A DNA stretch of 27,634 nucleotides from a virus: IMG/VR virus record IMGVR_UViG_3300025413_000908, positions 1 through 27,634 of that record; one strand, written 5' to 3'. Below the pieces are notes generated by a model. That model saw only the letters and a list, made by a program, of their open reading frames with translations. It had not been told where the DNA came from and ran no database searches. This document shows positions 737 through 21,555 of this stretch, piece after piece (position 1 is the stretch's first letter; each line of letters begins with the position of its first letter). Made by a program: the position numbers and the translations under genes.

Positions 737-1297
737 ATGTATAATTTTATTCGTTATGTTAGCCTAAATGAAGGAAAAACTCCTAAAACTTTAGAACAAA
801 CTAAATTGCCTTACAAACGCGATGCGTTAGAACCTAGTATCAGTGAGGATACTATCAACTACCATTATGGAAAATTATACAAAGGATATGTTGATCGGTT
901 TAATAACGGCGAAGGCGATGCTGATTTTAATGAAGCAGGTGCATTTTTACACGATTTATTGTTTACTCAATATCAAGAACCTGCAAGAAGTAATGATCCA
1001 GACGGTTCTGCTGGCGAGTTTATAACTAAACATTTTAAAACATTTGACAAATTTACAGCTGATTTTGAAAAAGAAGCAATGAAAATACAAGGTAGTGGTT
1101 GGGTATACCTAGCTCGAGATGGTAAAATTAAAACTATCAAGAACCACGAAATTAAGATGGATATTGTTTTAATAGTTGACTGGTGGGAACATGCGTGGGC
1201 ATTAGACTATCAAAGTGAAAAGAAAAAGTATCTATCTAATCAATGGAAAATTATCAACTGGAACGTTATTAGTTCTAGAATTGGTCTAGCGTCTTAA
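737..1297 (+). CDS. Compact Fe/Mn-family superoxide dismutase
   Basis: This 186-residue protein belongs to the Fe/Mn superoxide dismutase family, which converts superoxide to oxygen and hydrogen peroxide. It has LPYKRDALEP (24-33), the first metal ligand His43 in NYHYGK, the gate Tyr51, the second ligand His72 in AFLHDLLF, GSGW (119-122), and the ligands Asp148 and His152 in VDWWEHAWALDYQ, followed by the usual WKIINW end. All four metal ligands are therefore present. Two things are odd. The stretch between Tyr51 and His72 is only 21 residues, against about 47 in E. coli SodA, so most of the N-terminal helical hairpin is missing. In addition, the usual active-site Gln in the NQD loop is His137 (KNHEIK). 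Metal preference cannot be told. Its end overlaps the convergent zinc-ribbon gene by 23 bases. It probably protects the infected cell or phage-supported metabolism from oxidative damage. Confidence 0.87.
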   Translation: MYNFIRYVSLNEGKTPKTLEQTKLPYKRDALEPSISEDTINYHYGKLYKGYVDRFNNGEGDADFNEAGAFLHDLLFTQYQEPARSNDPDGSAGEFITKHFKTFDKFTADFEKEAMKIQGSGWVYLARDGKIKTIKNHEIKMDIVLIVDWWEHAWALDYQSEKKKYLSNQWKIINWNVISSRIGLAS

Positions 1298-1959: not shown

Positions 1960-4900
1960 ATGTCACAACAATTAGTTAACGTAGGTGTACAAGGTAATGA
2001 CGGTACAGGCGATAGTATTCGCGATAGTTTTACCAAAATCAATAATAACTTTACAGAGCTGTATGCTGTATTTGGTGCTGGCGGTCAAATTAAATTTAGT
2101 AACTTAGCAGACGCACCTGGTACGGCAAGTTTTAGTATTACAAATATTGTTGCTGGTAGTCCGTCTACTGGTTCTACAACTATAACATTTTCTAATCCAA
2201 ATGTATTATTAAGTCCATTTACTACAGGACAAAATATTACTATTAGCGGTTGTTCGCCATCTGGTTATAATGGAAACTATTTAATTACAGCAGCATCATC
2301 TACTACTATTACTGTAATCAATAGTACCACTGGTACAGCTACGACATTAGGTGCTGTGGCAAGTACAGCTTATAGTGCTAATCAAATTATTATGGCAAAT
2401 ACTAGTGGTAGTGCATTATCTGCAAGAACACTAGTGGCTGGCACAAATATTACCATCAATAATTCAAATAATAGTACGTTAACTATTAGTTCAACAGCCG
2501 GCACACTTCAGAGCGATTCTAGTCCGACATTAGGAAATTTTTTAAATGCGGCAAATTTTACTATTGGGCGTTTGTCTGATCCTAGTCCAGCACTAGTAGC
2601 ACAATTTAATGCGTTTTATGGCTCAGTAAATCCTAGCTTAACTACTACACTAAATCAAATGCCAGTTACTGTTGGCTATGCCAACAGTAACTTTTTACCA
2701 ATTAATCCAGCAACTGGTAGTGTTATTGGGGCATTAAAAGTTCGAAATGAACCTACTACACCACAAACCAGTGATTCAGATTACGATGCAACATTACAAG
2801 GAAATTATGTAGCTACTGAAGCGATACAACGCCGTCATGCAGTTCGTCGCGATGGCGATACCATGTCTGGCACGTTGACTCTTAACGATCACCCTGCACC
2901 GCTAAACGGTAAAGGTATTGTTAATTCTTCAACCGATTTACAAGCTGCTACAAAATATTATGTTGATAGCAACACATACTATAGCGGTGTTAATTTATAT
3001 GTTAGTGCAACAAAAGGTGATGATTTACAAAGAAATACACCTAGTGGAAGACAAGGTCGTGCTTGGCAATATGCCTACAAAACTGTAGGTGCTGCTGCAT
3101 TACAAGCTGACAATTTAATAAATTTATCTTCAATAGAACCCGGACCGTATCGTCAAACTATTGTTTATACAATATCTCCAACCCAATATAAAAGTACAGT
3201 TCAAAGTGTAACACTAGTGGGAGGAAATAGTGGCATCCAAGGATACATGGATGCTACAGCATTATTACAAGCTAATAGATCATTCATTCAAGCTGAAACT
3301 ATTGCTTATCTAAACAGAAAATATGTAAATCAATTTACATTTAGTCAAGCACGTTGGGCCGGTATTATTGATAATATTTTAACCAGTATTGGAAACGATC
3401 TAGTATTTTCTAATGGATCGGTTGCTCCTTTATCAAACTACAATAGTATTACCCAGGCTAGTTTATTATTAAACAATAATAATTCAGACATTATTTCAAA
3501 TTATTATATTCAACTAGTTGATGCTATCGGTTATGCTCAGGCGCAACTGGCAACTTATTCTTATAGCATAACCAATACACAAACATACATTGGTTCAGTT
3601 ATAGATGCTGTTGCATCTGATGTAGTATTCTTATCAAATTACCAAAGTATTCAAGCAGCTTTGGCATTTTCGTATGCTAATACAGGACTAACTACAACTG
3701 AAATTGTCGGAGCATTGACTAATTTATCAAGTGTAATTACAAGTTCAGCCAGTTGGAATTCTAACATTACAACTGCTCCAACTACTTCAACATTTATTGC
3801 CAACACAATAACATCGATTATTAATATTATTCAGTCTGGCAATATACCAAATCCTACTTTCCCATCAATTGCTACAACAACTACTGGTCAGGTAAGTGCT
3901 CAAAATTTATTAATTAATAATATTCCTTTCATACAAGCTGAAATAACAGCGTATATCACAGCAAATTATCCAAATGTAAGCTATAGTACATCGTTATCAC
4001 AACGCGATATAAAGTATATTGTTTGGAGTTTAGTATACGATTTAATGTATGGAGGTAACAGTCAAAGCGTTTATGCAGCAAATCGTTACCGCTACAATGC
4101 TACACTACATTTAAACTCTAGCGAACAACCTGTCTGCGCAGCTGCGGTTGGATATTTAAATACCCTAGCACAAAACATTATTAACAACACCTTACTTGGT
4201 TCTGGTAGTACTACGCTGTATCAATCTAGTGTAGTTCAGTATACAAATGCAACATACCTAAACGGTGGTAGCGGATTTATCAATGGTGGCGCAACAACAA
4301 TTTCGTCATCAATTGCTGCAAACATTGCAACAATACAACATGTAATCGATGGCACAAATACTAGTCCTACTGCAACTGCTCCTACATATTCTAATGGTAA
4401 TAGTATATTACAAAGTATTAGAAGTATATTAACTTCACAAAAAGTTGGAGATACCTTTACAGGAAGTATTGCTACTAATACTTTAACAATTTCTGGAAGT
4501 GTTACAGGAAGTGTGCCGTTTGGTATAGGTGATACTATTAGCGGAGCAGGCGTAATCGATGGTACAATAATCACTGGCGGATCAGGATTATCCTGGACAG
4601 TTAATAATGCCCTAAATCTCAGTCTAGTTCCTATGACTACTGGACTAGTTCAAGGAGCAATCAATTATATCAATGCTACGTACTCTATTATTAATGATAC
4701 AACAACTAACACTATCATTACTAATTTGTTTAGCAGCATTACCAATTTATTAAATGTAGGGGTACCTAACAGGACAGTTCCAACTTTTGTCAACCCTACA
4801 GGATTACCTTCTGCAAATAGTCAGGCACAATCAGCATTATTGGCCAATATTCTATTCTTGCAAAACGAATTTACATCTTGGATTGCTGTAAATTATTCTA

Positions 4901-7900
4901 CAACTACTATTGATGTTATTTCTACTAAACGTGCATTAGGCTATATCATCGAAGCATTAGCTTATGATTTAACTTACGGTGGAAATACAGCAAGCAGTGC
5001 CGTAGCACAAACATTTATTGCCAGTGCAAATGCTATTGGTGCAGGATTAAACAGTTTATATGTTGCTGCATTAACACAAATTTCAACAACTATTGGTACT
5101 GTATTGAGCAACAGTCCTGCTAGTGCAAGTTTAGGAAATTATCTGTCAGTTACTGGTGTTACAGTATCAACTCCTAGTACAGGATATGTTCAATTAAATT
5201 TTGCTAGTCAAACTTCTGCTCCATTTACAATTGGCCAACAAATTACTGTTCAAGGGCTAACACCTAGTAGTCTTAACTCTACAACTGGTACATCATTTAC
5301 TGTAACTGGAGTAGGAACAAATTATGTTCAATATGCAAATACTACTAATAGTACCGTAGGGTTTGTTAGCGGGCAAGGACAAATCACTACACAAGTTCAA
5401 TATTCTGGTTGGAGTTCTGCCAGCGGAGTTACAACAGGAACACAAGCAACTAACTACCAAACAACTACTTCGCTACTAGGTGAAATAATTACTATTGTTG
5501 GTGCTACTACAGTAACTACTTCGACTACGAATAATATTACCACTATTTCAACAGTAACAACTACAGGTGGCGGATCTAATACAGTTAACTATACATTAAC
5601 TAATCCGTTAATTAGTAACTCAGTTTATAATTCAACATACATTAATGCTAGAACATTAATTAACAATAATTATATTACAGTTGGAACAGCAACTACAACT
5701 TATCTTGCAAACAAATACACCGGTGGATTCAACTATAATCAAGCAACTTGTTCTAGAGATATTGGTTTAATTGTTGATGCCATGGTTATTGATATGCGTG
5801 TTAACGGTACATATCAAAGTATCAATGCAGGTCGAGCATATTATAAAAATGCTTCAGCACAAGGTATTGCTATTGGAACACAATATACTGAAACTATAGA
5901 TGGACTAACATTTGCATTTGGTGATGGTAGCGGCAGTAATGTTGGCCTAGTATATCAAGTTTTAAATCAAACTACCAATGTTCAACGCTATCAAACACTA
6001 GTTACTCAGCAAACTAATGCTACATTAAGCACAAATTATAACCCAACTACTCCTGCCATTAATACTTACACAAGTCAATGGTACATTGCCTATAGTATTA
6101 TTACTACCGGACTCGGAGCAGCTCCTGCTATAACTACTAGTACATACGGTACTGGTTATTATAGTATCACATTTAATAACGGCGGTAATGGGTATGTAGA
6201 TCAAGGAACACCCGGAGATGTACATATTATACCAGGCAAGATATTGATTGGTAATTCGTCTAATGCACTTGGACAAATTATAAGTTACACTCCCGGTAAA
6301 CAACCTCTTAGCACGGTTCCATATGATACAATTAACATGTATCTAACACAACCAGGATTCTTCCAAGTTGGGGAATATTTGGATTATGGCGAAACTGTTA
6401 GTAATTTAAATATTACAATTTTTGTAGAAAGCGGAATTTATTACGAAGACTATCCAATTAAAATTCCAGCAAACGTGACCATTAGCGGAGATGATTTCCG
6501 TCGTACAATTATTCGACCATTAAATCGTATCAGTCAAAGTCCATGGCGTAATGTATTCTTCTATCGAGACGGTGTAATTGATGCCTTACAAGTTGGGCCA
6601 ATAAATTATGCAGGAACCGATTATGCTCAGTTATCAGCTACTGCATTAACTATTGGAGCTACATCTGGCACATTTACTGCTTCGCTTGGTAATGGAGTAC
6701 AGGCCATTTCAACATGGCCAGGTCTGGTATTAACTGAAGCTGTATATCAAGTAACCAGTGCATCTATAAACACTAGCACAAATGTAGCTACGTTGACTTT
6801 CCAGACTATTCAAGGCAATTTAATGCCATCTAGTCCGTATATTGTTGGTCAAAATATTAATATTGAAGGGATGACTCCTGCTTCATATAATGGTGTGTAT
6901 GCAATCAATACTATCAATGTAACAGGTGCAGGTACTAGTGGCGGAACTGCCACTATAACAGTTTACAATTACTCTACTACTATTAATGCAACTAGTTACG
7001 GTAATATTGTAGCAGGTAAGGCAGTAATTAACACAGTTAGCGGTAACGTAATTAATTGTACAACAATTTATCCATTTACAGCTACACAAACATACGCAGC
7101 AAATAGTTGGCATTTATTTGGAACTATTAATTACGGACGTCATTACCTAAGTAATCCATTAGATATTAACAGTACTCCATTGAATAATCAAAACATGGAT
7201 GTATTCTTATGTAATGATGCTACACGTATTAAATTGTTGACTATGCAAGGCCATGGCGGATTTGCTATGGTACTTGATCCAACTGGACAAATTAAAACTA
7301 AATCGCCATATGGTCAAGAAAGTGCAGTGTTTAGTGCAAGTATAAACGCACAAGCATTTAGGGGCGGACAATTTGTTGACGGATTTACTGGAAGATTATT
7401 TGGTAATATAATTGGTATTGCTAGTGCCAATGGTACTGCCGGTTTATCAGTTACTATTCAAGGTACAGTTAATAGTGGTCTTGATGTTAGACCACCGCAA
7501 ACACCATGCGCATTTTACTTGCAAGGTTTTAGATATCAAGTCAACAATGTTACAAGTTATAATGCTAATGCTACTATTACAACAGCTGCTTATGTAAGTG
7601 GCGGAGCAATTGGTGCAAAGACTTTAACTATTGCTAGTAATTTACTAGTGTTAGTTGGTCAAGTAATTAGTGGTACTGGTATTCCTACTGGAACTTATAT
7701 TAAATCTATCAGCGGTACTACACTAACTCTTTCAGCCGCATTAACAACACAAGCTGCCGGAACATACACATTCTATGCTCCTCAAGTAACTGTTACATTA
7801 GATGTTAGTACACCGTTTAACCCTGCTGTAATTTACAGTAGTGCTGCATTTGCAAGCAACTTAGGTAATATTGTCGATGCTATTGCATACGATAATGTGT

Positions 7901-10900
7901 TTGGTTCAAACTATCAAAGTGTTAAACAAGGGTTGATTTATCTTGCACCTCAAAATGCTGTTACAACAACAGCTGAGTTATTTGTAATTCAAGGGCTTAA
8001 CTATGCAAATTCATTAATTAATACATTGAGTTTACAATCGACTACCTTGACTACAGTAGCATCTTCTCTTGCCAATATTACTAATATTATTGCAAATGGA
8101 ACAGTTAGTGTACCAACATTAGTTTATCCCGATCCTGTTGGTGTAACTAGTACTGTTAGTCAGGCTCGTAAAAATATAACTTTGAATAAGAATTTTTTAC
8201 AATCTGAAATCTCAGCTTGGATCGCAAATAATTATGTAACAACTAGTTTATCAAATTATACAGCTACTAAATCTCAAAGAGATGCTGGGTATATTATTGA
8301 TGCGATTAGTTATGATTTGTTATACGGCGGCAATTCATCAATTTATGATATAGCACAAACATTCTATACTTCAAATTACAACGGTACTAGCCAGTTAGGT
8401 ACAAATGCACAAGTATGTATTGCAGCATATATACGCCTAAACACCGTAATACAACAAGTTATTCAAAATCAAGTTGTAACTCCAAGCAATGGTAATTTGC
8501 TAACTCAAAATCTTACAACTTACACAGCCGCCACAGAAACTTTAAGTAGTGTTGTAATTGGCTCTAGCGGAACATTTACATTTGCAACTGCTCCACGAAC
8601 TTTAGTTGTTGGTCTAGCTGTTACTATTAGTGGTACTAATACTGGATCAGGTAGTGTAGCAAACGGTACATATTATATTACAACTTGCACACAAACATCA
8701 TTCACTTTATCTAGCTACTCGGGTGGTGCAGCGATTTCAACTACAGCAGGTACGCCAGTGGGATTAACATTTGCGTTTAGTGTCGAAGCATTGGCTATTT
8801 CCACATTGTTTAATACATTAATTGATTATGTTGCTGACGGCGCATTTAACGATACTGTAGCAGCAACTATCACTGCTGGTAGTACAACTATTACCAATTT
8901 GTCTTATAGCCCGTATTTAACTAATGGAGTAACTGTTACAGGTACCGGTATTCCAGCAAGTACAACATTAAGTAATATTAATTTTTCAACTGGAACCGCA
9001 ACACTAAGCAATGCAGCTACTGCAACAAGTGCTAGCACAGGCGGCAGTAATCAAGATGGCACTATATTATTAACTGTAGGATCTCCAGCTGTTACTCGTA
9101 CACCACCAGTAATTACAGCGCAAACTACAAGTGCTATTACTGATTTTTATACATTATCTAATAATAAGATTGCTAGTGTAACCGCAACTTATTCTAGCGG
9201 TGGAGCAAGTGGTGCTAGTTCATTCACTATATCAAACAGCGCAAATACAACATTAAGCAATGTACAAGCAACTGGACTAGCAGGAACATTCACTTGTAAT
9301 AGTGCAAAACTAGTACTCGGTAATACTGTTACAGTAACCGGGTCTGCAGGTGGTACTGGAAGTATTTCTGGATATACAACTGGTAATATCTACTATATTA
9401 TTTCTGTAACTGGCACAACAGGATTTACATTATCTACAACATTGAATGGTAGCCCAATCACTACTACTATTGGTACATTAACCATGACATTTACCGAAAC
9501 TGGTAGTGTGTCAGGTATATTGCCTGGAATGATTGTTACAGGTACTGGGGTACCTGCAGGAACAGCAGTTGCTAATACATATGTTCCAACTAGCTCAACT
9601 ATTCAATTAGTTAGTGCATCAACTGGGTTACCTGTAACATTGACTGCACAGGCCGCTGGAACATACACTTTTGGTACTAGTACTATCGACATTGAAGATG
9701 CCGCTGTTAATTATATCAACGCTGGTGCCAATATTGGTATCAACATTGAAATGGGCGGTAATAAGTCAATGTTGAGCAATGACTTTACTATGGTAAACGA
9801 TTTAGGTTACGGATTATTAGTAACTAACGGTGGTGCAGCAGAAGCTGTAAGTATGTTTACATACTACAACTATGTAAGCTATTGGGCATTAAACGGTGGA
9901 CAAATTCGTTCTGTTGCTGGCTCAAGTAGCTATGGTGTGTACGGATTACGTTCAAGTGGTAGTGATGTAACTGAATTACCTAATGCTGTGAATTTGGCCA
10001 ACGACATGGTTCAAACAGCACGTATCTACAAAGAAGGTATTTTTGCTAGTTCGCAAACAACAGCTACAAGTTTAAATTTAACTGTATATATTATTAACTA
10101 CGAGTATCCTCCAGAGCCAACAAGCGAATTAGAAATTGATCACACAGCCAGTGGTGGAGTGATTACTAGATATTTAATTAATACAGTAAGCCATACTACA
10201 GTATATGTAAATGGTCAAAATGTATTGTCTCTTGCATTGAGTACTTCAGGTACAAACAGTACAACTACAACAGGTCTAGCATACCCGTTATATGACGGAC
10301 AACTAGTAACTATTCGAGTATTGCAAAATATTAAATTCTACAATATCACTAACGTTAAACCTGTTCGTCCAAGTACCGCATTACAATATAGTACTAATTT
10401 AGGTTCTATCTATCGTATTATTAGTTACGGATTGACTGAAAGTACTGGTGAACAATTGCCAGCAAATACATCTGTGTTAACTACAGATAGTTCGTTTGCT
10501 TACATATCATTTAATCATGATACAAGTAGTATACAAAATGCTGACTTAGTAAATTATGCGGCTAAAGGATTTGTTGCAATTAACGGTTCAGGAAATAATA
10601 CAAGCAGCACAACGCTAACAGTTAATCAAGTTAATGGTACAATTATTGCTGGACAAATTCTTGGAGGCATTGGTTTTACCAATCAAACTGTATCAACTGT
10701 TGTAACTAATACAGCAGTAACAACAGGATCTACAATTAGCAACACTGGTGTATTTACAGTTGGCACATTAGGATCAGGAACTGTTGCCATCGGTATGGTG
10801 CTAACTGGTACTAATGTTACAGGCACTGTTTATATTATATCTAATATTAGCGGTAGCGGTAGCGGTAGTACATGGCAAACAAATACTACTAGCGCAGCTA

Positions 10901-13900
10901 CAAGCGGTGCAATTACAGGTACAAGCTATACTGTAACATTAAGCGGTGTTCCAACACTGACTCCGTATGGACCTGTAGTATTTTCAACACAATCACAAGG
11001 TTCAAAATTAGGTGATAGTAAAATTGCTGTTTTGGCATCTAGCGTATCAACAACTATTAACCAAATTAACCAAGGTACATATCTAACAGGTTGGGGTGGT
11101 AAAGTTTTCCGTGTATTAAGCTATACACAATCAAATATACCTGCCAGCGGATTATTCAATCAAGCATTAAGCACTACAGCATCTAGTACAGGTATTATTG
11201 GTAATGGGTTAGCCAGTGCAAGTATTGGAAATATTTTTACTCCGTTAAGTACTATCACAGGATCATTTACTGTGGGCATGGGACTTACTGGTTCAGGTAT
11301 AACTAATAGTACATATATTACCGCTGTTAATTCAGCCGTGTTTATTGGTACTATTAGCACAACTACTTTAACCATTAGTTCAGTAACAAGTGGAACCATA
11401 TCAATTGGTATGGCAATTACAGGAACTGGCGTAACAGCTGGAACATATATTGTTTCAGGTAGCGGTACAAGTTGGACATTAAATCAATCAGCGACGGGTA
11501 CTCCTACGACAGGTACAAGTTATACTGTTAACATTGGTCAACTAGTAACAAGTAATACATTTACAGGTTATAGTACAACAATTTATCTAACAGCAGTTGC
11601 TGGAACAATTACAAATAATTCTCTAATAACAGGTGCTGGTTTTAATGGTACACAAAGCATTGTAAGTTTTACACAACCAACATTGAGCACAGCTCAAATT
11701 GTGTTAAATGTTGCACCAAGCGGTGTACCGAGTGGAACATTGACTATAGGAACAGCTACTAATGCGTTCTTAACTATTGATCCAAATAGTGTTTACAACT
11801 TATCAAGTATTGGCACAGGTGTTAGTGCTATGACGTTTGCTAGCCAAACACTACAACCTAATAGTACAAGTAGTAAATTTGTTACTTATAATATTCCCTA
11901 CAACGCCAATGCTATATTACCACCAGTAGATAGTTATATAACAATAGCAAACCAAGCCAATACTAACTATAATGGAACTTATCAAGTAGTAGGTATTACT
12001 AATAAAACTCAAATTACAACAAGTAGCACTAGTAGTTTAACTACTGGTATGGTTGTATCTAGTATTAATACTAGTATTACTATCACCGGTATCACTGCTA
12101 GTACACCTGGTGTAGGTTATTTTACTGTAACTTATGGCACACAAACTAGTGCGCCATTTAGTATTAATAGCGTTATAGTAATTGCAGGTGTTACTGGTAC
12201 TACAGCATACAACGGCACTTATACTGTTTACTCATTAGTAAGTGGAACAGGACTTACTGGAGTAGTCATTGCAAGTACAACTACTGGGTCGGCAACAGTC
12301 ACAGGCGCTACTATTTCAAATCCATTTAGTTATGTTCCAAGTGGAACAATTGTTCAAAGTATTGATAGTTCAACACAATTTACTGTAAGTCCTGCTTGTT
12401 GGGTTCAATATGGATCCGTAGTAAGTAGTCAACTATTAGGAACAGTAGCTAGTGTAACTATTACCAACGGCGGTAGTGGGTATACAAGCCCACCAACAAT
12501 AACATTCTCAGGTGGAGGGGTAACAAGTCCTGCGCAACAAGCTATTGCAGTTTGTACAATCAGTGGCGGAAGTATTAGCGCTGTTACTGTTGTAAGTCCT
12601 GGTTTTGGATATACCAGTACTCCAACGATTACATTAAGTTCAGTACTAGGAGGCGCAATATTGACACCGGTCATTACTGTGCCAACAGCAGTAAGTGTAT
12701 CTGCTAATGCAGGTGTCAATACTATACAAGCTCAATTATTGTACTCAACTGATCCAGGCACTAGCGGCAACGCTACAGCCGTAGCAACTACTACTGCTAC
12801 TATGTCATCTAGTAGTATCAATAGTAGTGGTGTGTTATCAATTGGATCTGTATCCGGCACTGTTACAAATGGTATGATATTAACTGGTGCAGGTATAGCA
12901 CAAGAAACAAGTTTATCAGTTGCATCTGTCAGTACTAATACCGGTACAGTTACATTTACTGTAATTACATCGCTAACAACTCCATACGCTGTTGGTCAAT
13001 TAATTACTGTTACAGGCATGGTTCCGACTGGTTATAATGGAACTTATCCAGTTACCGCTTCTAGTACAACTACATTTAGCAGCACATCTGGATTTATATC
13101 AGGTAATACATTATCATTAACTGGTACTATAACTAATAGTTCAAACATTTCAATTGGTAGTGTGGTAACTAGTGCAAATATTACTGCTGGTACATATATT
13201 ACTGGTATTAATACAGCAACATTTACTAGTACTATTAGCAGTACAACACTAACAATAGCAACAATTTCTGCAGGAACAATTAGCGTTGGTATGGTATTAA
13301 GTGGTGGTACAGTGACAGCTGGAACTTATATCAGTGCGTTCTTGGGCGGGACAGGTGGAACCGGCACATACACATTAAATCAAAGTGCAACTGGAACTCC
13401 TACAACAGGTACAAGTTATACTGTTAATACCAGCCAATCGGCAGCAAGTGCAAGTGTATCAGGTACAACAACTATAGTAAGTTATACCAATAGTACAACA
13501 GGGGCATTAAGTACACCCGGTACCGTAAATAGCAATATTTACACTTACATTACTAGTGGAAGTGGAAGTACATGGCAAACTGCAACTAATATTGGTACAA
13601 ACTATACTGTAAGTTCAACAACAATTACAGGTACCGACAATTTAATTACATTAAGTACTGTCAATAATATTAGCATTGGTAATCAAATTACATTTACAAC
13701 ACCTAGTGGTGGAACAGCATTAGGTAATCTAGTAACTGGTACTACATATTATATTACTAATGTAAATTCTAGTACAAAACAAATTACAGTAAGTGCTACA
13801 CCTGGTGGAAATTCATTTACAACTGGTACTGTTGGAACTGGTTTAATGACATTCTACTGTCCAGGATATACTTATGGCAGTTCTATAACTAGTACTGGTT

Positions 13901-16245
13901 TTGTTAGTAAGACATATAATTCTGGTAATAACAATTATAGTATTGTATTAAGTTTCTTAACAACTACAGCACCAACAACTAATGCTTGGTTCTATGTAGC
14001 AGGTAACAGCAACAGTTTGTACAATGGTTATTTTCAATGTAGCTCAAGTAGTACTACTAGTATTACATTAACCTATCCATATGATCCTGGTATATATGGA
14101 ACTACTTACACTACAACTACTACAATAACACCTGAGGTAACTAGTGCAAGTTCTACAGCATTAGGATTAAGTAAACCATTTAGTCTTACAACAAGTTCAA
14201 CATTACGTTTAGGTTATCCTGCAGCTAGTTCAGGACAAATTACTGTTAAGATTTCAACTACTCGTGCTACAGGTCACGACTTTTTGAATATTGGTACTGG
14301 CGGTTACAATACCAGTAACTACCCAACACAAATTTACGGTAATCCTGCTATTGCTGAAATTTCAAGTCAGCAAATTTTAGAAGAAACTACTGGTCGTGTG
14401 TTTTATGTAACAACAGACGAAAACGGTATTTTCCGTGTGGGTCGATTCTTTACAGTTGACCAAGGTACCGGTACTGTTACATTCTCAGCATCAATTGCCT
14501 TAAGTAACTTAGACGGTCTAGGATTTAAGAAAGGTGTAGTTGTTAGTTCATTTAGTACAGATGGAACTATGGCTGAAAATGCAAGTGATGTTATTCCAGT
14601 ACAAAGTGCAATTCGAAGTTATATCGATAGTCGTTTAGGATTGACACACAATGGAAGTTTAACTCCTCTGGTCAACTTAATTGGTCCTGGATTCTTGGCA
14701 TTAGACGGAAGTCTAAGTATGAAAGGTAATATTAATGCTGCAGGCTTTACAGTTAGTAATCTTGCTACACCAGTGTATACTACCGATGCAGCTAATAAAG
14801 TTTATGTTGATGGCAAAGTTACATTATTCAATGCTTTAAGTAAACTAAGTGATGTGTTAATTGCATCACCGATTCAAAATAATTTGTTAGCGTACAATGG
14901 TACAACATGGGTTAATGCTAGTACTGGCGGCGCAAGTAATATTACTATAACTTATGTGGGAACTAATATTGTTGCTACAATCAATAGTAGTACTATTACT
15001 AATTCAATGATTAGCTCATCGGCCGCTATTGCTCAAAGCAAATTGTCATTAAATGTTGCCAAAGGACTAGCAACAGGAACTAGTGGAAGTGGAACAGCAG
15101 GCGCTATTGTGCAGGCAGATTTAGGATTAAGTGTTTACAACAATAATGTGTTTAATGTAAGCGCTACTGGTTTTGTCGATTTGTTAACTAGTTCTAGTTC
15201 AACTACAGGTGTACCATTAACAGCTATTACACAAATTGCTACTGGAACATTGTTGGGTAACAGAAGTGGTAGTGCAACAAGTCCAACAACTGTTACTCCT
15301 GCACAAGTAGTTAGTGATGCTGGCGGTATTGTAAACACTTCGTTTAATTCAAGCGGTATAATGACTATAACTTACAATGGTGTTAGCACAGCTGGTAATA
15401 CTTATAGTGTAACACCAGTTAGCGTAAGTAATGCCGTAAGCAGTATTGTAAAATCTGGAGCTGATAAGAGTGTTGATGTTGGCAGTTTAAAAGTTTCTAC
15501 TTACACAGCATTAACTGTAAGTGGAACTACATTAAATTTTAGTACACCCGGCGCAAGTACTGGTACAACATACTTTATGACTAGTACGGGTACAACTACT
15601 AGTAATACAGTTACAACAATGTACGGTGCTGTCGATCATACTAATGGTACATTACTTGCTAAAAACTTGTTTACTAATAGTACAGATAATACTGTTAAAG
15701 GCAGCATACAAGGTAATTGGCAAGTTCAAAGCGGTAGTTATATCGATTTGTATACATATGGTGGAACATTATTAAGTAGTACATTAACAACAGGTAGTGG
15801 AACTAATGCAGGTACTATTACAGGTACTTGGACATTAAGCGGAACTGGAACACAACTTCAAGCTACGTATAGCGACTTAGCTGAATGGTATACAGCTGAT
15901 GCAGAATACGAACCTGGTACAGTATTAGTATTTGGAGGTGATGCAGAAACTACAACTACTACAACAATTAATGACACACGTTGTGCTGGTATTGTAACAA
16001 CAGATCCGGCATATACTATGAATAGTCAACTAAAAGGAACTAGGGCGTGTCTTGCACTTGCAGGTCGTGTACCATGTAAAGTTGTAGGACGGGTGAAGAA
16101 AGGAGATATCTTAACTACAAGTGCTACTCCTGGATATGCCGTACGTGCTGCAACTCCTACTTTAGGTGCTATTGTTGGCAAAGCATTAGAAGATAAGGAC
16201 TACGGCGAAGCTGGAGTCATTGAAGTTGCTGTAGGGAGAGCATAA
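1960..16245 (+). CDS. Giant modular tail-fibre / virion structural protein (4,761 aa)
   Basis: One uninterrupted frame of 4,761 residues follows a GGAG ribosome-binding site. The N-terminus (NVGVQGNDGTGDSIRDSF, then NNNFTELY) is a motif shared by neighbouring fibre genes and marine T4-like phage fibres, and probably attaches to the virion. Next comes DLQAATKYYVD with VSATKGDDL (about 325-355), then repeated helical modules ending in YDLxYGGN (three full copies, with partial ones around 458, 543, 1261 and 1964). A likely pectin-lyase-type beta-helix begins near NITIFVESGIYYEDY (about 1485) and another beta-rich stretch around 2600-2680. Many short Thr/Ser/Gly beta modules (GMxLxGTGVxxGTYI) run from about 2700 to 4050. 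Then come GRVFYVTTDENGIFRVGR (about 4146) and a second DAANKVYVDGK (about 4275). From YSDLAEWYTADAEYEPG (about 4637) the C-terminus resembles the intramolecular-chaperone/peptidase G2 type. It probably forms a very long host-recognition fibre. The subunit's exact virion position is unknown. Confidence 0.88.
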   Translation: MSQQLVNVGVQGNDGTGDSIRDSFTKINNNFTELYAVFGAGGQIKFSNLADAPGTASFSITNIVAGSPSTGSTTITFSNPNVLLSPFTTGQNITISGCSPSGYNGNYLITAASSTTITVINSTTGTATTLGAVASTAYSANQIIMANTSGSALSARTLVAGTNITINNSNNSTLTISSTAGTLQSDSSPTLGNFLNAANFTIGRLSDPSPALVAQFNAFYGSVNPSLTTTLNQMPVTVGYANSNFLPINPATGSVIGALKVRNEPTTPQTSDSDYDATLQGNYVATEAIQRRHAVRRDGDTMSGTLTLNDHPAPLNGKGIVNSSTDLQAATKYYVDSNTYYSGVNLYVSATKGDDLQRNTPSGRQGRAWQYAYKTVGAAALQADNLINLSSIEPGPYRQTIVYTISPTQYKSTVQSVTLVGGNSGIQGYMDATALLQANRSFIQAETIAYLNRKYVNQFTFSQARWAGIIDNILTSIGNDLVFSNGSVAPLSNYNSITQASLLLNNNNSDIISNYYIQLVDAIGYAQAQLATYSYSITNTQTYIGSVIDAVASDVVFLSNYQSIQAALAFSYANTGLTTTEIVGALTNLSSVITSSASWNSNITTAPTTSTFIANTITSIINIIQSGNIPNPTFPSIATTTTGQVSAQNLLINNIPFIQAEITAYITANYPNVSYSTSLSQRDIKYIVWSLVYDLMYGGNSQSVYAANRYRYNATLHLNSSEQPVCAAAVGYLNTLAQNIINNTLLGSGSTTLYQSSVVQYTNATYLNGGSGFINGGATTISSSIAANIATIQHVIDGTNTSPTATAPTYSNGNSILQSIRSILTSQKVGDTFTGSIATNTLTISGSVTGSVPFGIGDTISGAGVIDGTIITGGSGLSWTVNNALNLSLVPMTTGLVQGAINYINATYSIINDTTTNTIITNLFSSITNLLNVGVPNRTVPTFVNPTGLPSANSQAQSALLANILFLQNEFTSWIAVNYSTTTIDVISTKRALGYIIEALAYDLTYGGNTASSAVAQTFIASANAIGAGLNSLYVAALTQISTTIGTVLSNSPASASLGNYLSVTGVTVSTPSTGYVQLNFASQTSAPFTIGQQITVQGLTPSSLNSTTGTSFTVTGVGTNYVQYANTTNSTVGFVSGQGQITTQVQYSGWSSASGVTTGTQATNYQTTTSLLGEIITIVGATTVTTSTTNNITTISTVTTTGGGSNTVNYTLTNPLISNSVYNSTYINARTLINNNYITVGTATTTYLANKYTGGFNYNQATCSRDIGLIVDAMVIDMRVNGTYQSINAGRAYYKNASAQGIAIGTQYTETIDGLTFAFGDGSGSNVGLVYQVLNQTTNVQRYQTLVTQQTNATLSTNYNPTTPAINTYTSQWYIAYSIITTGLGAAPAITTSTYGTGYYSITFNNGGNGYVDQGTPGDVHIIPGKILIGNSSNALGQIISYTPGKQPLSTVPYDTINMYLTQPGFFQVGEYLDYGETVSNLNITIFVESGIYYEDYPIKIPANVTISGDDFRRTIIRPLNRISQSPWRNVFFYRDGVIDALQVGPINYAGTDYAQLSATALTIGATSGTFTASLGNGVQAISTWPGLVLTEAVYQVTSASINTSTNVATLTFQTIQGNLMPSSPYIVGQNINIEGMTPASYNGVYAINTINVTGAGTSGGTATITVYNYSTTINATSYGNIVAGKAVINTVSGNVINCTTIYPFTATQTYAANSWHLFGTINYGRHYLSNPLDINSTPLNNQNMDVFLCNDATRIKLLTMQGHGGFAMVLDPTGQIKTKSPYGQESAVFSASINAQAFRGGQFVDGFTGRLFGNIIGIASANGTAGLSVTIQGTVNSGLDVRPPQTPCAFYLQGFRYQVNNVTSYNANATITTAAYVSGGAIGAKTLTIASNLLVLVGQVISGTGIPTGTYIKSISGTTLTLSAALTTQAAGTYTFYAPQVTVTLDVSTPFNPAVIYSSAAFASNLGNIVDAIAYDNVFGSNYQSVKQGLIYLAPQNAVTTTAELFVIQGLNYANSLINTLSLQSTTLTTVASSLANITNIIANGTVSVPTLVYPDPVGVTSTVSQARKNITLNKNFLQSEISAWIANNYVTTSLSNYTATKSQRDAGYIIDAISYDLLYGGNSSIYDIAQTFYTSNYNGTSQLGTNAQVCIAAYIRLNTVIQQVIQNQVVTPSNGNLLTQNLTTYTAATETLSSVVIGSSGTFTFATAPRTLVVGLAVTISGTNTGSGSVANGTYYITTCTQTSFTLSSYSGGAAISTTAGTPVGLTFAFSVEALAISTLFNTLIDYVADGAFNDTVAATITAGSTTITNLSYSPYLTNGVTVTGTGIPASTTLSNINFSTGTATLSNAATATSASTGGSNQDGTILLTVGSPAVTRTPPVITAQTTSAITDFYTLSNNKIASVTATYSSGGASGASSFTISNSANTTLSNVQATGLAGTFTCNSAKLVLGNTVTVTGSAGGTGSISGYTTGNIYYIISVTGTTGFTLSTTLNGSPITTTIGTLTMTFTETGSVSGILPGMIVTGTGVPAGTAVANTYVPTSSTIQLVSASTGLPVTLTAQAAGTYTFGTSTIDIEDAAVNYINAGANIGINIEMGGNKSMLSNDFTMVNDLGYGLLVTNGGAAEAVSMFTYYNYVSYWALNGGQIRSVAGSSSYGVYGLRSSGSDVTELPNAVNLANDMVQTARIYKEGIFASSQTTATSLNLTVYIINYEYPPEPTSELEIDHTASGGVITRYLINTVSHTTVYVNGQNVLSLALSTSGTNSTTTTGLAYPLYDGQLVTIRVLQNIKFYNITNVKPVRPSTALQYSTNLGSIYRIISYGLTESTGEQLPANTSVLTTDSSFAYISFNHDTSSIQNADLVNYAAKGFVAINGSGNNTSSTTLTVNQVNGTIIAGQILGGIGFTNQTVSTVVTNTAVTTGSTISNTGVFTVGTLGSGTVAIGMVLTGTNVTGTVYIISNISGSGSGSTWQTNTTSAATSGAITGTSYTVTLSGVPTLTPYGPVVFSTQSQGSKLGDSKIAVLASSVSTTINQINQGTYLTGWGGKVFRVLSYTQSNIPASGLFNQALSTTASSTGIIGNGLASASIGNIFTPLSTITGSFTVGMGLTGSGITNSTYITAVNSAVFIGTISTTTLTISSVTSGTISIGMAITGTGVTAGTYIVSGSGTSWTLNQSATGTPTTGTSYTVNIGQLVTSNTFTGYSTTIYLTAVAGTITNNSLITGAGFNGTQSIVSFTQPTLSTAQIVLNVAPSGVPSGTLTIGTATNAFLTIDPNSVYNLSSIGTGVSAMTFASQTLQPNSTSSKFVTYNIPYNANAILPPVDSYITIANQANTNYNGTYQVVGITNKTQITTSSTSSLTTGMVVSSINTSITITGITASTPGVGYFTVTYGTQTSAPFSINSVIVIAGVTGTTAYNGTYTVYSLVSGTGLTGVVIASTTTGSATVTGATISNPFSYVPSGTIVQSIDSSTQFTVSPACWVQYGSVVSSQLLGTVASVTITNGGSGYTSPPTITFSGGGVTSPAQQAIAVCTISGGSISAVTVVSPGFGYTSTPTITLSSVLGGAILTPVITVPTAVSVSANAGVNTIQAQLLYSTDPGTSGNATAVATTTATMSSSSINSSGVLSIGSVSGTVTNGMILTGAGIAQETSLSVASVSTNTGTVTFTVITSLTTPYAVGQLITVTGMVPTGYNGTYPVTASSTTTFSSTSGFISGNTLSLTGTITNSSNISIGSVVTSANITAGTYITGINTATFTSTISSTTLTIATISAGTISVGMVLSGGTVTAGTYISAFLGGTGGTGTYTLNQSATGTPTTGTSYTVNTSQSAASASVSGTTTIVSYTNSTTGALSTPGTVNSNIYTYITSGSGSTWQTATNIGTNYTVSSTTITGTDNLITLSTVNNISIGNQITFTTPSGGTALGNLVTGTTYYITNVNSSTKQITVSATPGGNSFTTGTVGTGLMTFYCPGYTYGSSITSTGFVSKTYNSGNNNYSIVLSFLTTTAPTTNAWFYVAGNSNSLYNGYFQCSSSSTTSITLTYPYDPGIYGTTYTTTTTITPEVTSASSTALGLSKPFSLTTSSTLRLGYPAASSGQITVKISTTRATGHDFLNIGTGGYNTSNYPTQIYGNPAIAEISSQQILEETTGRVFYVTTDENGIFRVGRFFTVDQGTGTVTFSASIALSNLDGLGFKKGVVVSSFSTDGTMAENASDVIPVQSAIRSYIDSRLGLTHNGSLTPLVNLIGPGFLALDGSLSMKGNINAAGFTVSNLATPVYTTDAANKVYVDGKVTLFNALSKLSDVLIASPIQNNLLAYNGTTWVNASTGGASNITITYVGTNIVATINSSTITNSMISSSAAIAQSKLSLNVAKGLATGTSGSGTAGAIVQADLGLSVYNNNVFNVSATGFVDLLTSSSSTTGVPLTAITQIATGTLLGNRSGSATSPTTVTPAQVVSDAGGIVNTSFNSSGIMTITYNGVSTAGNTYSVTPVSVSNAVSSIVKSGADKSVDVGSLKVSTYTALTVSGTTLNFSTPGASTGTTYFMTSTGTTTSNTVTTMYGAVDHTNGTLLAKNLFTNSTDNTVKGSIQGNWQVQSGSYIDLYTYGGTLLSSTLTTGSGTNAGTITGTWTLSGTGTQLQATYSDLAEWYTADAEYEPGTVLVFGGDAETTTTTTINDTRCAGIVTTDPAYTMNSQLKGTRACLALAGRVPCKVVGRVKKGDILTTSATPGYAVRAATPTLGAIVGKALEDKDYGEAGVIEVAVGRA
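3817..4089 (+). repeat. Helical fibre module, copy 1
   Basis: About 91 codons with the pattern: Ile-rich start, NIPNPTFP, a helix with NNIPFIQAEITAYI, then SQRDIKYIVWSLVYDLMYGG and SVYAANRY. The same order recurs at 4741-5016 and 8071-8367, so this is an in-gene repeat at protein level. The copies have diverged at DNA level. Confidence 0.7.
4741..5016 (+). repeat. Helical fibre module, copy 2
   Basis: Same module as at 3817-4089: NRTVPTFVNPTG, LLANILFLQNEFTSWIAVNY, then ALGYIIEALAYDLTYGGN and SSAVAQTF. The charged SQRD start is replaced by STKR. The next related YD motif (around 5740-5860) is more divergent. Confidence 0.7.
8071..8367 (+). repeat. Helical fibre module, copy 3
   Basis: Third full copy: VSVPTLVYPDPVG, KNFLQSEISAWIANNY, then SQRDAGYIIDAISYDLLYGG and IYDIAQTFY. 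It is separated from the first two copies by the beta-helix-like part, suggesting the module was placed twice in the architecture rather than in one tandem array. Confidence 0.7.
11341..11532 (+). repeat. Beta module with GTISxxTLTI...TSYTVN, copy A
   Basis: A 64-codon module (STTTLTISSVTSGTISIGM, TGTGVTAGTYI, then TLNQSATGTPTTGTSYTVN). It pairs with 13222-13428. The last 19 residues are identical in both copies, while the DNA differs at eight synonymous positions. Confidence 0.75.
13222..13428 (+). repeat. Beta module with STISxxTLTI...TSYTVN, copy B
   Basis: A 69-codon module (SSTTLTIATISAGTISVGM, GGTVTAGTYI, a five-residue Gly-rich insertion, then TLNQSATGTPTTGTSYTVN). It is homologous to 11341-11532. 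Weaker relatives occur around 4471, 7600, 8870, 9495, 10740, 11220 and 13130. Confidence 0.75.
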
Positions 16246-16502
16246 TGACTCAACAAAATATAAACATCGGCGCAACACCAAATGCTACAGGTGCAGATAC
16301 TATTCGTGTAGCATTTGGTAAGGTAAATGCAAATTTTGCTGATTTATACCCGCAAATTGTGCCTACTCACAGTACTGGTAAAACAGGCGATATAGCAGGA
16401 ATGGTTGCGTTTGATTCTGTATATTTTTACTACTGCACAGCATCGTATGACGGTACTACTAATATTTGGAAGAGGCACACGTATGATGCTGGAACATGGT
16501 AA
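16245..16502 (+). CDS. Short fibre-family protein with shared N-terminal motif (85 aa)
   Basis: The ATG overlaps the stop of the giant gene (TAATG), indicating translational coupling. The N-terminus (NINIGATPNATGADTIRVAF, then NANFADLY) is the same motif that begins the giant protein and the next gene. The rest (GDIAGMVAFDSVYFYYCTAS, then NIWKRHTY) matches the C-terminal 'D-x-x-Y-x-Y-x-C-T-A ... W-K-R' ending that also closes the 360-aa protein. It is therefore a minimal fibre: an attachment motif joined directly to a tip motif with no shaft. It could be a fibre adaptor, a small fibre, or a remnant left by shaft loss; the intact ends favour a real protein. Virion localisation is inferred from context. 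Confidence 0.75.
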   Translation: MTQQNINIGATPNATGADTIRVAFGKVNANFADLYPQIVPTHSTGKTGDIAGMVAFDSVYFYYCTASYDGTTNIWKRHTYDAGTW

Positions 16503-16521: not shown

Positions 16522-17604
16522 ATGACAATACAAACAATCAATTTAGGTAGCTATGCTAATGACGGCACAGGTGACGATTTACGCACCGCATTTACTAAGG
16601 TAAACAGTAACTTTGCTGTTCTTAATGCTGAGGCAGCAATTAGTACTGCTGTTAACTTAGGTTCTGGAACTGGAGTATTTGCCGATAAAAACGGTATTAA
16701 TTTAGAATTTAAAACATTAACTAGTACAGGAAATACAGTAACAATATCAACTGATGCAAGCACAGTTAATTTAGAAGCAAAGACTATACTAATTAACGAT
16801 TCAACTCCTACACTAAACAATAATTTAAATTTAAATGGTCATCATACGTTCGGTGGTGATATACAAAATACCATATATGGTCAAGATCCAAATATAGCTG
16901 CAGGTTTATTTTCTGCAATGGTTCCTACTACCAATCTTATTGCAGATTTTGGTTCTGTTACTTACCCAACTGGCTGGCAAAGAAATAGCAGAGGTTATAC
17001 TGTAGATTTTAATGGAACTGGAGTATTAAGTGGTATTACTAATCCTCCAAACAATGATTATGATTTTGGCGAGTTTGGGCAAACTTCACTATCTGTAGGA
17101 GGTCATTTTTTAACTTTAGGTGTTAGCCTTACTACCGCAGGTACTAATAATATCACATTAACATCTACTGGTGTTACCAATGTAACACTGCCTACTAGCG
17201 GTATTTTAACAACTACTGCCAGTACATTAAACCAATTTGCAAATACAAGTAGTAGTCAGTTGCTGTCTATAATACCCGATGCTACTGGAACTGGATATGC
17301 TGTTTTTAATGCAAATCCTATATTGACAGGAACTACTACCGCAACTAATTTATCACTAAGCGGATATTTATATGCTTCTGGAAATTTTGCCATCAATGGT
17401 TCAGTATTTGAAATCAATGCAACTAATGGTAATGTAACTTTTCAAGATGGCACAATACAAAATACCGCATGGCCTAGTACATCCGGCACAAAAAGTTCAA
17501 ATTCAACAGGTACTATTGGACAAATTTCATGGGATACCAACTACATTTATGTTTGTACAGCACCTAATACTTGGAAAAGATCACCATTAACCGGCGGTTA
17601 TTAA
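16522..17604 (+). CDS. Tail-fibre-like protein with shared N-terminal motif (360 aa)
   Basis: The protein begins with the shared motif (NLGSYANDGTGDDLRTAF, then NSNFAVLN). It then has Thr/Ser/Asn-rich beta repeats with shaft-like phrases (GVTNVTLPTSGILTTTAS, and FEINATNGNVTFQDGTIQNT) typical of phage fibre shafts, and ends with TIGQISWDTNYIYVCTAPNT followed by WKRSPLTGGY. That ending matches the tip of the 85-aa protein. The LPTSGTL-type phrase is common in phage fibre and appendage proteins. The gene lies 19 bases after the 85-aa gene and one base before the next. Probable role: a trimeric fibre used in adsorption. Receptor and partners cannot be read from the sequence. Confidence 0.78.
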   Translation: MTIQTINLGSYANDGTGDDLRTAFTKVNSNFAVLNAEAAISTAVNLGSGTGVFADKNGINLEFKTLTSTGNTVTISTDASTVNLEAKTILINDSTPTLNNNLNLNGHHTFGGDIQNTIYGQDPNIAAGLFSAMVPTTNLIADFGSVTYPTGWQRNSRGYTVDFNGTGVLSGITNPPNNDYDFGEFGQTSLSVGGHFLTLGVSLTTAGTNNITLTSTGVTNVTLPTSGILTTTASTLNQFANTSSSQLLSIIPDATGTGYAVFNANPILTGTTTATNLSLSGYLYASGNFAINGSVFEINATNGNVTFQDGTIQNTAWPSTSGTKSSNSTGTIGQISWDTNYIYVCTAPNTWKRSPLTGGY

Positions 17605-20191: not shown

Positions 20192-20805
20192 CCAGCGCAA
20201 TAATTACATCAACAATTAATACTGCTTACCCAGTAGCAGGACAGGATAATAATAGTCAAGGATTTCGTGACAATTTCACAGCTATTAAAACTGGATTAGC
20301 CGAAGCGGCTACTGAAATTTCAGCTTTGCAGGCAAATGGTATCAATGTTACATCTGCTACAAATTCTTTACAAGGATCAACATTAACTAACGGTTCCTAC
20401 AGTCAATTTTATCCTCAAGCAGATAATTTAGGAACTATCGGCACTTCAACTACTATCGATTTAAATAACGGGTCAGTTCAATACGGAACTATCAATACAT
20501 CTGGACTTACGCTAACTTTTGCAAATTGGCCAACAACTGGGTTTGGTACTATAAAACTTATTCTTAAATTTACACAAGCTGCGACAACAACAACTACACT
20601 TAGTACTACTAATTCAGGAAAACTAGTAGTAGATAGTTCATGGTCCGGCAGTGTGTTTACCCAATCGGGTGGTGTTGGTTCAAATGTACAAATTGTGTAT
20701 CCTTATCCAGGTACTAATAATATGTATGTAATTGATGCATTTAGTTATGATGCAGGTAGCCACGTATATTTAAAAGTATCTGGAACTTATTCGAGTAGTA
20801 TATAA
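20188..20805 (+). CDS. Fibre-family protein with variant N-terminal motif (205 aa)
   Basis: The N-terminus (INTAYPVAGQDNNSQGFRDN, then FTAIKTGLAEAATEI) is a variant of the 'GNDGTGD..R..F..NF' motif, here with a longer helix that looks like a short coiled coil. The rest is beta-rich and Thr/Ser/Gly-rich (NLGTIGTSTTIDLNNGSVQY and LILKFTQAATTTTTLST) and ends in a strand pair (NMYVIDAFSYDAGSHVYLKV). The same start phrase is found in marine T4-like phage proteins, annotated usually as hypothetical or structural. The ATG overlaps the previous stop and the TAA shares a base with the next ATG, so it belongs to the structural operon. It is probably a small fibre or whisker; the precise virion part is unknown. 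Confidence 0.7.
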   Translation: MTSAIITSTINTAYPVAGQDNNSQGFRDNFTAIKTGLAEAATEISALQANGINVTSATNSLQGSTLTNGSYSQFYPQADNLGTIGTSTTIDLNNGSVQYGTINTSGLTLTFANWPTTGFGTIKLILKFTQAATTTTTLSTTNSGKLVVDSSWSGSVFTQSGGVGSNVQIVYPYPGTNNMYVIDAFSYDAGSHVYLKVSGTYSSSI

Positions 20806-21045: not shown

Positions 21046-21555
21046 ATGCGCCTAGATAAATTCGGTAATCCTATTTTTAATACACAAGATATATTTAAAT
21101 TCCTGTATCAAGGAAAGCTAACCAACCTCAAGGATCTTACGGTAGATTATACCGAAGAGATTAATGAGTTGGAGCAAGTTGCGGGTTTTACATTTCGAAG
21201 ATTCAACGAACAATTAGAATCAATTGACATCACAGATTTCGATAGTGCATTGCAAAGCGATTGGTTTATGCCTAACGAATACAGAGATTTTGATGTAGAA
21301 GATTGGTGTATTAAAAAATGTACAACCAAAGAACAAATTGCCAGAGTAACAGCTGAAATGGCTGCTTATAAAGATCGCGGAATGATTCCATTATTGCAAT
21401 GGACTAAACATTTTGTAGATACTTGCAATGAAAATGGTATTGTTTGGGGAGTCGGTCGTGGATCGAGCGTAGCTAGCTTTGTACTATATTTGTTAGGCGT
21501 ACATCAAATAGATTCGGTCAAATATAATTTAGACTGGCAGGAATTTTTGAGATAA
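21046..21555 (+). CDS. DnaE (PolIII alpha)-like fragment protein lacking the catalytic Asp motif (169 aa)
   Basis: This 169-residue protein ends with GIVWGVGRGSSVASFVLYLL, then HQIDSVKYNLDWQEFLR. That closely matches the palm motif of bacterial C-family DNA polymerase III alpha (GPGRGSGAGS, then DPL.F.LLFERFLN), which helps bind the incoming nucleotide triphosphate. In true DnaE the catalytic PDFDID aspartates follow immediately, but here the gene stops exactly before them. The N-terminal part (RLDKFGNPIFNTQDIFKFLY, helices with KDRGMIPLLQWTKHFVDTC) is not a PHP nuclease, as no His/Asp metal cluster is visible. It cannot be a polymerase by itself. Similar truncated DnaE-like proteins occur, to my knowledge, in marine T4-like phages with unknown role. 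It may bind nucleotides or DNA, or interfere with host PolIII; both are inference. Confidence 0.72.
   Translation: MRLDKFGNPIFNTQDIFKFLYQGKLTNLKDLTVDYTEEINELEQVAGFTFRRFNEQLESIDITDFDSALQSDWFMPNEYRDFDVEDWCIKKCTTKEQIARVTAEMAAYKDRGMIPLLQWTKHFVDTCNENGIVWGVGRGSSVASFVLYLLGVHQIDSVKYNLDWQEFLR

Follow-up and report, generated by a model that had tools for sequence, protein, structure and literature searches.

In many phycobiliproteins, the motif CXRD holds the chromophore cysteine to which a bilin is covalently attached, and the same site is found in the globins BBAG-1 and BBAG-3, which self-assemble and take up bilins without lyases (PMC10151467). Bilin enzymes are also encoded by phages. That heme oxygenase and bilin reductase genes occur together in phage genomes has been called 'still enigmatic', the enigma being greatest for a proposed alphaproteobacterial host, where light harvesting is an unlikely role; iron supply has been discussed as a role of these genes (PMC11480375). 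Among phage proteins with a self-cleaving end, gp12 of phi29 is cut at S691-D692 (PMC4690869).

The present study describes a giant gene in a virus record of 27,634 bases, which was analysed over its whole length and is hereafter called the window. The gene encodes a fibre that is ordinary in size and new in content. No report of phycobiliprotein-family domains in phage tail fibres was found in the open-access literature searched, and to our knowledge a phage tail fibre with such domains is undescribed. By its length, a giant fibre could claim no more than a size record, and the window fibre sets none; its helical modules belong to a group of candidate bilin acceptors, many of which still carry the bilin-attachment motif.

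A continuous gene of ordinary size within its family

The gene consists of a single frame with an ATG start, 4,761 codons, and no internal stop; its length and lack of stops had been claimed in an earlier note on this DNA. At a GC content of 36%, an open frame of this length is not a product of chance. The coding sequence recurs without a single nucleotide difference on three other IMG/VR contigs (L002, L004, and L005), which perhaps derive from related samples. A search of IMG/VR with a 96-aa piece of the fibre returned 212 relatives, 80 of which were examined together with the window. A complete frame with the N-terminal motif was present in 44 sequences, representing 38 distinct proteins; one of these (L052, 2,722 aa) was set aside because of its different, probably broken end. 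The 37 distinct full-length members, including the window protein, measure 3,290–5,481 aa (median ∼4,000). The N-terminus is common to all of them, and the window-type C-terminus to 36. In comparisons with L006, L008, L009, and L020, codon position 2 was the most alike and position 3 the least in each 600-codon stretch compared, which indicates protein-coding constraint over the whole length. L052 and L081 hold homologous frames that end or start inside the gene, and represent broken or misassembled copies.

The fibre gene is real and continuous, and its product, as deduced from the gene, would be a single chain. The unusual length could suggest a chimeric assembly, or production as several proteins, a concern that the earlier note had raised, but the identical gene on other contigs, the 37 full-length homologues, and the coding constraint throughout rule out a chimera and leave this explanation with a negligible probability. 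The gene is large, yet ordinary within its own family. Its description as very large holds in absolute terms; two of the 37 complete members are longer than the window protein, and other jumbo phages have virion proteins of comparable length. Nor does the range of lengths in the family support the idea that it is exceptionally long for its kind. That the gene fills half of the window is correct as stated, but is an effect of the fragment, since relatives with the fibre gene were found on contigs of up to 356 kb.

Identity of the fibre and its neighbours

Residues 1–105 of the window protein resemble cyanophage 'baseplate wedge tail fibre connectors' of the gp10 type (best E 2e-9), and the intact attachment end described earlier was recovered as a baseplate-type N-terminus. 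The N-terminal motif is repeated in small genes downstream (Table 1), of which the 85-aa neighbour matches PF07880 at E 0.0076, below the cut-off. The order of the skeleton blocks is kept in annotated tail fibres of P-SSM2, Mosig, S-CAM1, S-CAM3, and S-SSM7, and partly in S-PM2p091, while the helical modules match PHROG families of tail-fibre and virion proteins. Judged by these resemblances, the window gene is a tail fibre with a Kyanoviridae tail-fibre skeleton.

The gene order nuclease, superoxide dismutase, small reverse gene, IscA, giant fibre, and small genes with the N-terminal motif is kept in most loci that are long enough. The superoxide dismutase, of the Fe/Mn type, lies just upstream of the fibre gene and is kept in most relatives; such an enzyme is unusual in a phage, and is perhaps interesting beside possibly pigmented fibres. 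The gene for an IscA/HesB-type iron-sulphur protein directly 5' of the fibre gene is kept in nearly all relatives. On the other side of the fibre lies a DNA polymerase-like gene of 169 aa, much shorter than a polymerase, with a homologue in L032.

T4-type gp23 was present in all four tested fibre-gene contigs of 161–356 kb. That of L040 is closest to gp23 of Phosso (71%) and of RaK2-like jumbo phages such as GAP32 (68%), their RaK2-like standing following PMC6102473. Those relatives that have the fibre gene come from samples of freshwater type and are jumbo phages, their capsid protein being RaK2/GAP32-like. Bacterial genome contigs yielded nothing related to the beta-block alignment, which therefore provides no host link.

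Table 1. Positions of the fibre gene, its parts, and neighbouring genes in the window.
Feature	Position	Strand	Basis or remark
Fe/Mn superoxide dismutase	737–1297		Pfam, E 5e-23
IscA/HesB-type iron-sulphur protein	1606–1956
Giant tail-fibre gene, 4,761 aa	1960–16245	+	open frame, homologues, coding constraint
Baseplate-attachment-type N-terminal motif NDGTGDSIRxSFxKxNxNF	1960–2079	+	common to downstream genes and cyanophage gp10-type connectors
Beta cassette B (YNG), copy 1	2158–2313	+	iterated profile
Helical module H1, variant without R-D	3262–3459	+	iterated profile
Helical module H2, variant without R-D	3499–3669	+	iterated profile
Phycobiliprotein-like module H3 (S-Q-R-D)	3871–4254	+	profile searches
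Beta cassette A (TISG), copy 1	4462–4617	+	iterated profile
Helical module H4, variant without R-D	4837–5016	+	iterated profile
Beta cassette B, copy 2	5170–5331	+	iterated profile
Phycobiliprotein-like module H5, sole C-x-R-D of the window protein	5620–6006	+	profile searches
C1264-S-R1266-D1267, bilin-attachment-type motif in H5	5749–5760	+	profile alignments
Conserved skeleton block, aa 1441–1560	6280–6639	+	matched in order in P-SSM2, Mosig, and S-CAM1 tail fibres
Beta cassette B, copy 3	6769–6924	+	iterated profile
Conserved skeleton block, aa 1681–1860	7000–7539	+	homologue alignment
Helical module H6, variant without R-D	7810–7941	+	iterated profile
Phycobiliprotein-like module H7 (S-Q-R-D)	8140–8529	+	profile searches
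Conserved skeleton block, aa 2581–2830	9700–10449	+	common to cyanophage and pelagiphage tail fibres
Beta cassette A, copy 2	10729–10911	+	iterated profile
Beta cassette A, copies 3 and 4	11227–11511	+	iterated profile, DNA pairs
Beta cassette B, copy 4	11863–12006	+	iterated profile
Beta cassette B, copy 5	12109–12234	+	iterated profile
Beta module C (GYTSPPTITF), single copy	12442–12639	+	also in S-PM2, Phosso, and Atu_ph07 virion proteins
Beta cassette B, copy 6	12928–13077	+	iterated profile
Beta cassette A, copies 5 and 6	13090–13407	+	iterated profile, DNA pairs
Beta cassette B, copy 7	13942–14067	+	iterated profile
Most conserved block RATGHDF..., aa 4081–4260	14200–14739	+	like stretch in 77 phage records
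Peptidase_G2-like C-terminal domain, aa 4630–4761	15847–16242	+	profile matches in relatives, fold prediction
S4638-D4639, putative self-cleavage site	15871–15876	+	aligned with phi29 gp12 S691-D692; PMC4690869
85-aa protein with the fibre's N-terminal motif	16245–16502	+	sequence motif
360-aa protein with the fibre's N-terminal motif	16522–17604	+	sequence motif
205-aa protein with a related N-terminal motif	20188–20805	+	by eye; without family match
DNA polymerase-like 169-aa gene	21046–21555		phrog_11127, 171 positions, E 5e-39

Conserved skeleton and insertable beta cassettes

Comparison of the window protein with itself by BLASTP returned nothing, and Pfam gave nothing useful for the whole protein and most of its pieces. 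Modules H, A, B, and C were defined by iterated HMM profiles, which bear out the recurring helical and beta modules proposed earlier. The homologue alignment contains conserved blocks, among them aa 1–60, 301–480, 1261–1320, 1381–1560, 1681–1860, 2581–2820, 4081–4260, and 4621–4761, and between them lie sites where modules come and go. The window protein contains seven copies of the helical module H (6–9 per family protein), six of beta cassette A (0–6), seven of beta cassette B (0–7), and one of beta module C.

Protein length tracks the copy number of A (r 0.72) and B (r 0.60), suggesting that size is set by insertable beta cassettes. Helical repeats were ruled out as the driver of size (H copy number against length, r 0.05). 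The earlier reading had missed that length varies through cassettes A and B and not through the helical modules. At the DNA level, no tandem repeats were detected in the fibre gene by TRF, and the only repeats are pairs that are 70–78% alike. The window copies of A are only 73–78% alike, so no very recent duplication is seen. Together, these data show that a single giant tail-fibre gene has been conserved and that its cassettes are exchangeable.

Strands are predicted in the conserved blocks, and we take their VESGIYYEDYPIKIPANVTISGDDF-type stretch to recall right-handed beta-helix proteins. Both points would suit a tailspike whose main task is to cut polysaccharide by means of a beta-helical catalytic domain, the rest serving as spacers. 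However, neither Pfam nor the PDB gave a convincing match to lyases or hydrolases, and the structural model of the conserved-block part is partly of low confidence. We regard the tailspike explanation as improbable, and retain the reading as a tail fibre.

C-terminal domain

The last 130 aa recur in proteins of PA5oct-like, Campylobacter, Atu_ph07, and Phosso phages, some of which are annotated as baseplate or virion proteins. Peptidase_G2 was matched by 7 of 12 family members (best E 5e-5); two relatives scored singly reached 17–18 bits and missed the Pfam cut-off of 25 bits, and the window member gave no match to this family at E≤1. The match puts an invariant Asp on D692 of phi29 gp12, and W-S691-D692-F-A-E of that protein stands opposite Y-S4638-D4639-L-A-E of the window protein. 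Ser-Asp at the cleavage position is kept in the window protein and replaced by Ala-Asp in most relatives, so cleavage, if any, is not general.

In L038, the C-terminal domain of the fibre is replaced by a Peptidase_S74 domain (E 1e-9), and the end of L073 is similar, by eye, to S74-like sequence. From the Peptidase_G2-like match and the S74 exchange, folding and trimerisation would be the likeliest role of the C-terminus, in line with the role of the families that it resembles. The maturation-like end that had been claimed is thus supported, as a domain that resembles self-cleaving chaperones. An AlphaFold model of the C-terminal 722 aa was usable for the last 120 aa only, and the predicted fold also resembles phage capsid decoration proteins. 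Alignment of the C-terminal profile with phi29 gp12 alone by hhalign was uninformative.

Helical modules and phycobiliproteins

An AlphaFold model of aa 1127–2077 of the relative L060 spans conserved blocks and H modules. Its helical part is confident, while much of this model and of the C-terminal one is of low confidence. Foldseek returned repeated matches of the L060 model to phycobiliprotein chains, with a probability of ∼1.0, a target TM of 0.5–0.7, and weak E values (0.03–0.1). Sequence profiles pointed to the same family. With a profile of 45 lake modules, 33 matches to the PDB were obtained at E≤10, and 31 of them were phycobiliproteins. A profile of 28 diverse modules from lake contigs, S-PM2, DSL-LC03, and other jumbo contigs (A6) was compared with 177,635 PDB sequences, and all 44 matches at E≤1 were members of the phycobiliprotein family (best E 3.2e-4). 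These include the engineered protein smURFP, which we take to be kin to the same family.

Profile-profile comparison by hhalign with 168 phycobiliproteins from cyanobacterial contigs yielded P values of 6.6e-6 and 4e-6, the latter over 97 columns. Among the controls, 12 other gene clusters of cyanobacterial contigs gave P≥0.08, reversed profiles 0.6–0.7, and shuffled columns 0.026 at best; in both the profile-profile and the PDB profile comparisons, the sequence kinship of the H modules exceeds the controls. Masking the C-x-R-D columns reduced the match to P 0.015–0.02, and much of the signal thus sits in this motif. PF00502 scored above Pfam's cut-off in the giant frames of S-PM2 (30 bits) and DSL-LC03 (24 bits). 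It matched 9 of 45 single lake modules at E≤5 (best 6.9e-5), and no match over the cut-off was obtained with the whole window protein.

The weak Foldseek E values, the weak match after masking, and the small number of single modules that reach significance in Pfam are compatible with convergence of short helical bundles, in which case the modules would be a separate phage fold. Against this, all 44 PDB profile matches are phycobiliprotein-family chains, an alignment over 101 columns persists for rows that lack C-x-R-D (P 0.0024), and the structure and sequence searches agree, so that we give convergence little credence. The assignment of the helical modules to the bilin-binding-globin family is well supported, and their kinship to phycobiliproteins and bilin-binding globins is probable but falls short of certainty. 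This identity had escaped the earlier note.

The C-x-R-D motif

In the 37 full-length proteins, 135 modules contain R-D, and the residue two positions before the Arg is Cys in 96 and Ser in 27 of them. The family proteins have only 12–24 cysteines in all. Of the seven window modules, one has the Cys (C1264), two have Ser, and four lack R-D. The motif is denser elsewhere: L375 (contig G024, 168500–175000) contains a frame of at least 1,868 aa that consists almost wholly of ten tandem phycobiliprotein-like modules, each of them with C-x-R-D, and all R-D modules detected in S-PM2p091 (five) and DSL-LC03 (three) also have it. C-x-R-D is found in most R-D modules across phages by the same computational analysis that established the single frame and the kinship of fibre and modules. 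C, R, and D are kept together across modules that are only 22–42% identical to one another's reference, and their conservation spans marine cyanophages to lake jumbo phages.

Bilin enzymes on phage contigs

Genes for heme oxygenase and a bilin reductase (FDBR) adjoin in G002 (345 kb) and G006 (356 kb), two contigs that were chosen for their fibre gene. In these lake contigs (L116 and L120) the two genes overlap as an operon, and a small heat-shock-like gene lies near the pair. A scan with the reductase returned 415 viral relatives, among them G011 (364 kb). This contig, found by its FDBR first, was then matched by H modules 11 times across three long frames, and has heme oxygenase beside the reductase. 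Both enzymes are consequently present in all three examined contigs >300 kb with H modules. The fibre gene and the bilin enzymes are about 80–95 kb apart; shorter fibre contigs end before this distance, and the lack of enzymes there says little. Nor is the window's own contig long enough to reach it.

The large positive contigs form one clade, so the co-occurrence of modules and enzymes is not independent, and as support for a bilin link it is suggestive within this one clade only. P-SSM2 and Mosig have bilin enzymes and no detected H modules. In S-PM2 and DSL-LC03, H modules are present and bilin enzymes were not found in either genome; here, a cyanobacterial host could be the source of the bilin. 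Neither H modules nor bilin enzymes were found in Phosso and Atu_ph07. A survey based on gp23 detected H modules in five of six contigs of 79–210 kb, with too few long contigs for a contingency table, and found no FDBR in these fragments. A CpeT-type lyase was not found in the lake contigs.

Proposed organisation of the fibre

We propose that the gene encodes one giant tail-fibre subunit of a myovirus of the T4 superfamily. By family resemblance, its N-terminus would attach the chain to the baseplate, and its Peptidase_G2-like C-terminus would aid trimerisation and cut itself off where the Ser is kept. Between these ends, beta cassettes and some seven helical modules from the bilin-binding-globin family appear to lengthen a Kyanoviridae tail-fibre skeleton. 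We hold this reading of a giant subunit with skeleton, cassettes, and phycobiliprotein-family modules to be likely as a whole, a judgement that leaves aside any pigment.

In a further step, some modules of the family may bind bilin through the cysteine of C-x-R-D, the bilin being supplied by phage enzymes or by a cyanobacterial host. The modules might instead descend from bilin-binding globins and now be mere rigid spacers, with C-x-R-D retained for folding or interchain contact and the enzymes serving iron supply or host pigments; we see roughly an even chance of this, and it bears on the pigment step only. It would fit the Ser in place of Cys in two R-D modules of the window and the lack of R-D in its other modules, the enzymes without modules in P-SSM2 and Mosig, and the discussion of iron supply in the literature (PMC11480375). 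It does not readily fit the joint conservation of C, R, and D in such divergent modules of proteins with very few cysteines. We therefore put forward only tentatively that, somewhere in the family, modules bind bilin via this cysteine and make the fibres pigmented. The broader proposal that aquatic jumbo phages and some cyanophages carry covalent-bilin fibres, and hence pigmented, possibly light- or redox-responsive virions, appears somewhat less likely still. Pigmented fibres, if real, would account for bilin genes that so far lack an explanation in such phages; the idea lends itself to tests on culturable phages such as S-PM2 and on recombinant modules.

Comparison with known systems

Two other giants, Atu_ph07 gp180 (4,449 aa) and Phosso XYS97451 (4,555 aa), share their size and module C with the window fibre. 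The Atu_ph07 and Phosso giants (L098–L101) have many copies of module C and adjoin a baseplate wedge gene. In contrast to the window fibre, no skeleton blocks and no H modules were found in them, and with only module C in common they were ruled out as orthologues.

The tail-fibre-like proteins of Kyanoviridae (PSSM2_301, S-CAM1, S-CAM3, S-SSM7, and Mosig_00063) share the blocks at about aa 1486–1520, 2590–2690, and 4093–4225 in the same order. Each has two or all three of these blocks, with ∼35–49% identity within them. Unlike the window fibre, those of P-SSM2, S-CAM1, S-CAM3, S-SSM7, and Mosig measure 1,090–1,477 aa, have other N- and C-termini, and contain no detected H modules.

The Peptidase_G2 chaperone of phi29 gp12 has the same C-terminal position and the same S-D-x-A-E at the cleavage site. 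The domain of the window family is shorter, most of its members have Ala for Ser, and the Pfam match in relatives is below the cut-off.

S-PM2p091 (3,338 aa) and the DSL-LC03 protein (∼3,161 aa) resemble the window protein in having H modules with C-x-R-D and in being encoded by multi-kilobase virion genes. S-PM2p091 also shares module C and skeleton blocks with it, and differs in both its N- and C-termini. With phycobiliproteins and the BBAGs, finally, the phage modules have domain kinship and C-x-R-D in common, and they differ in sitting inside a fibre.
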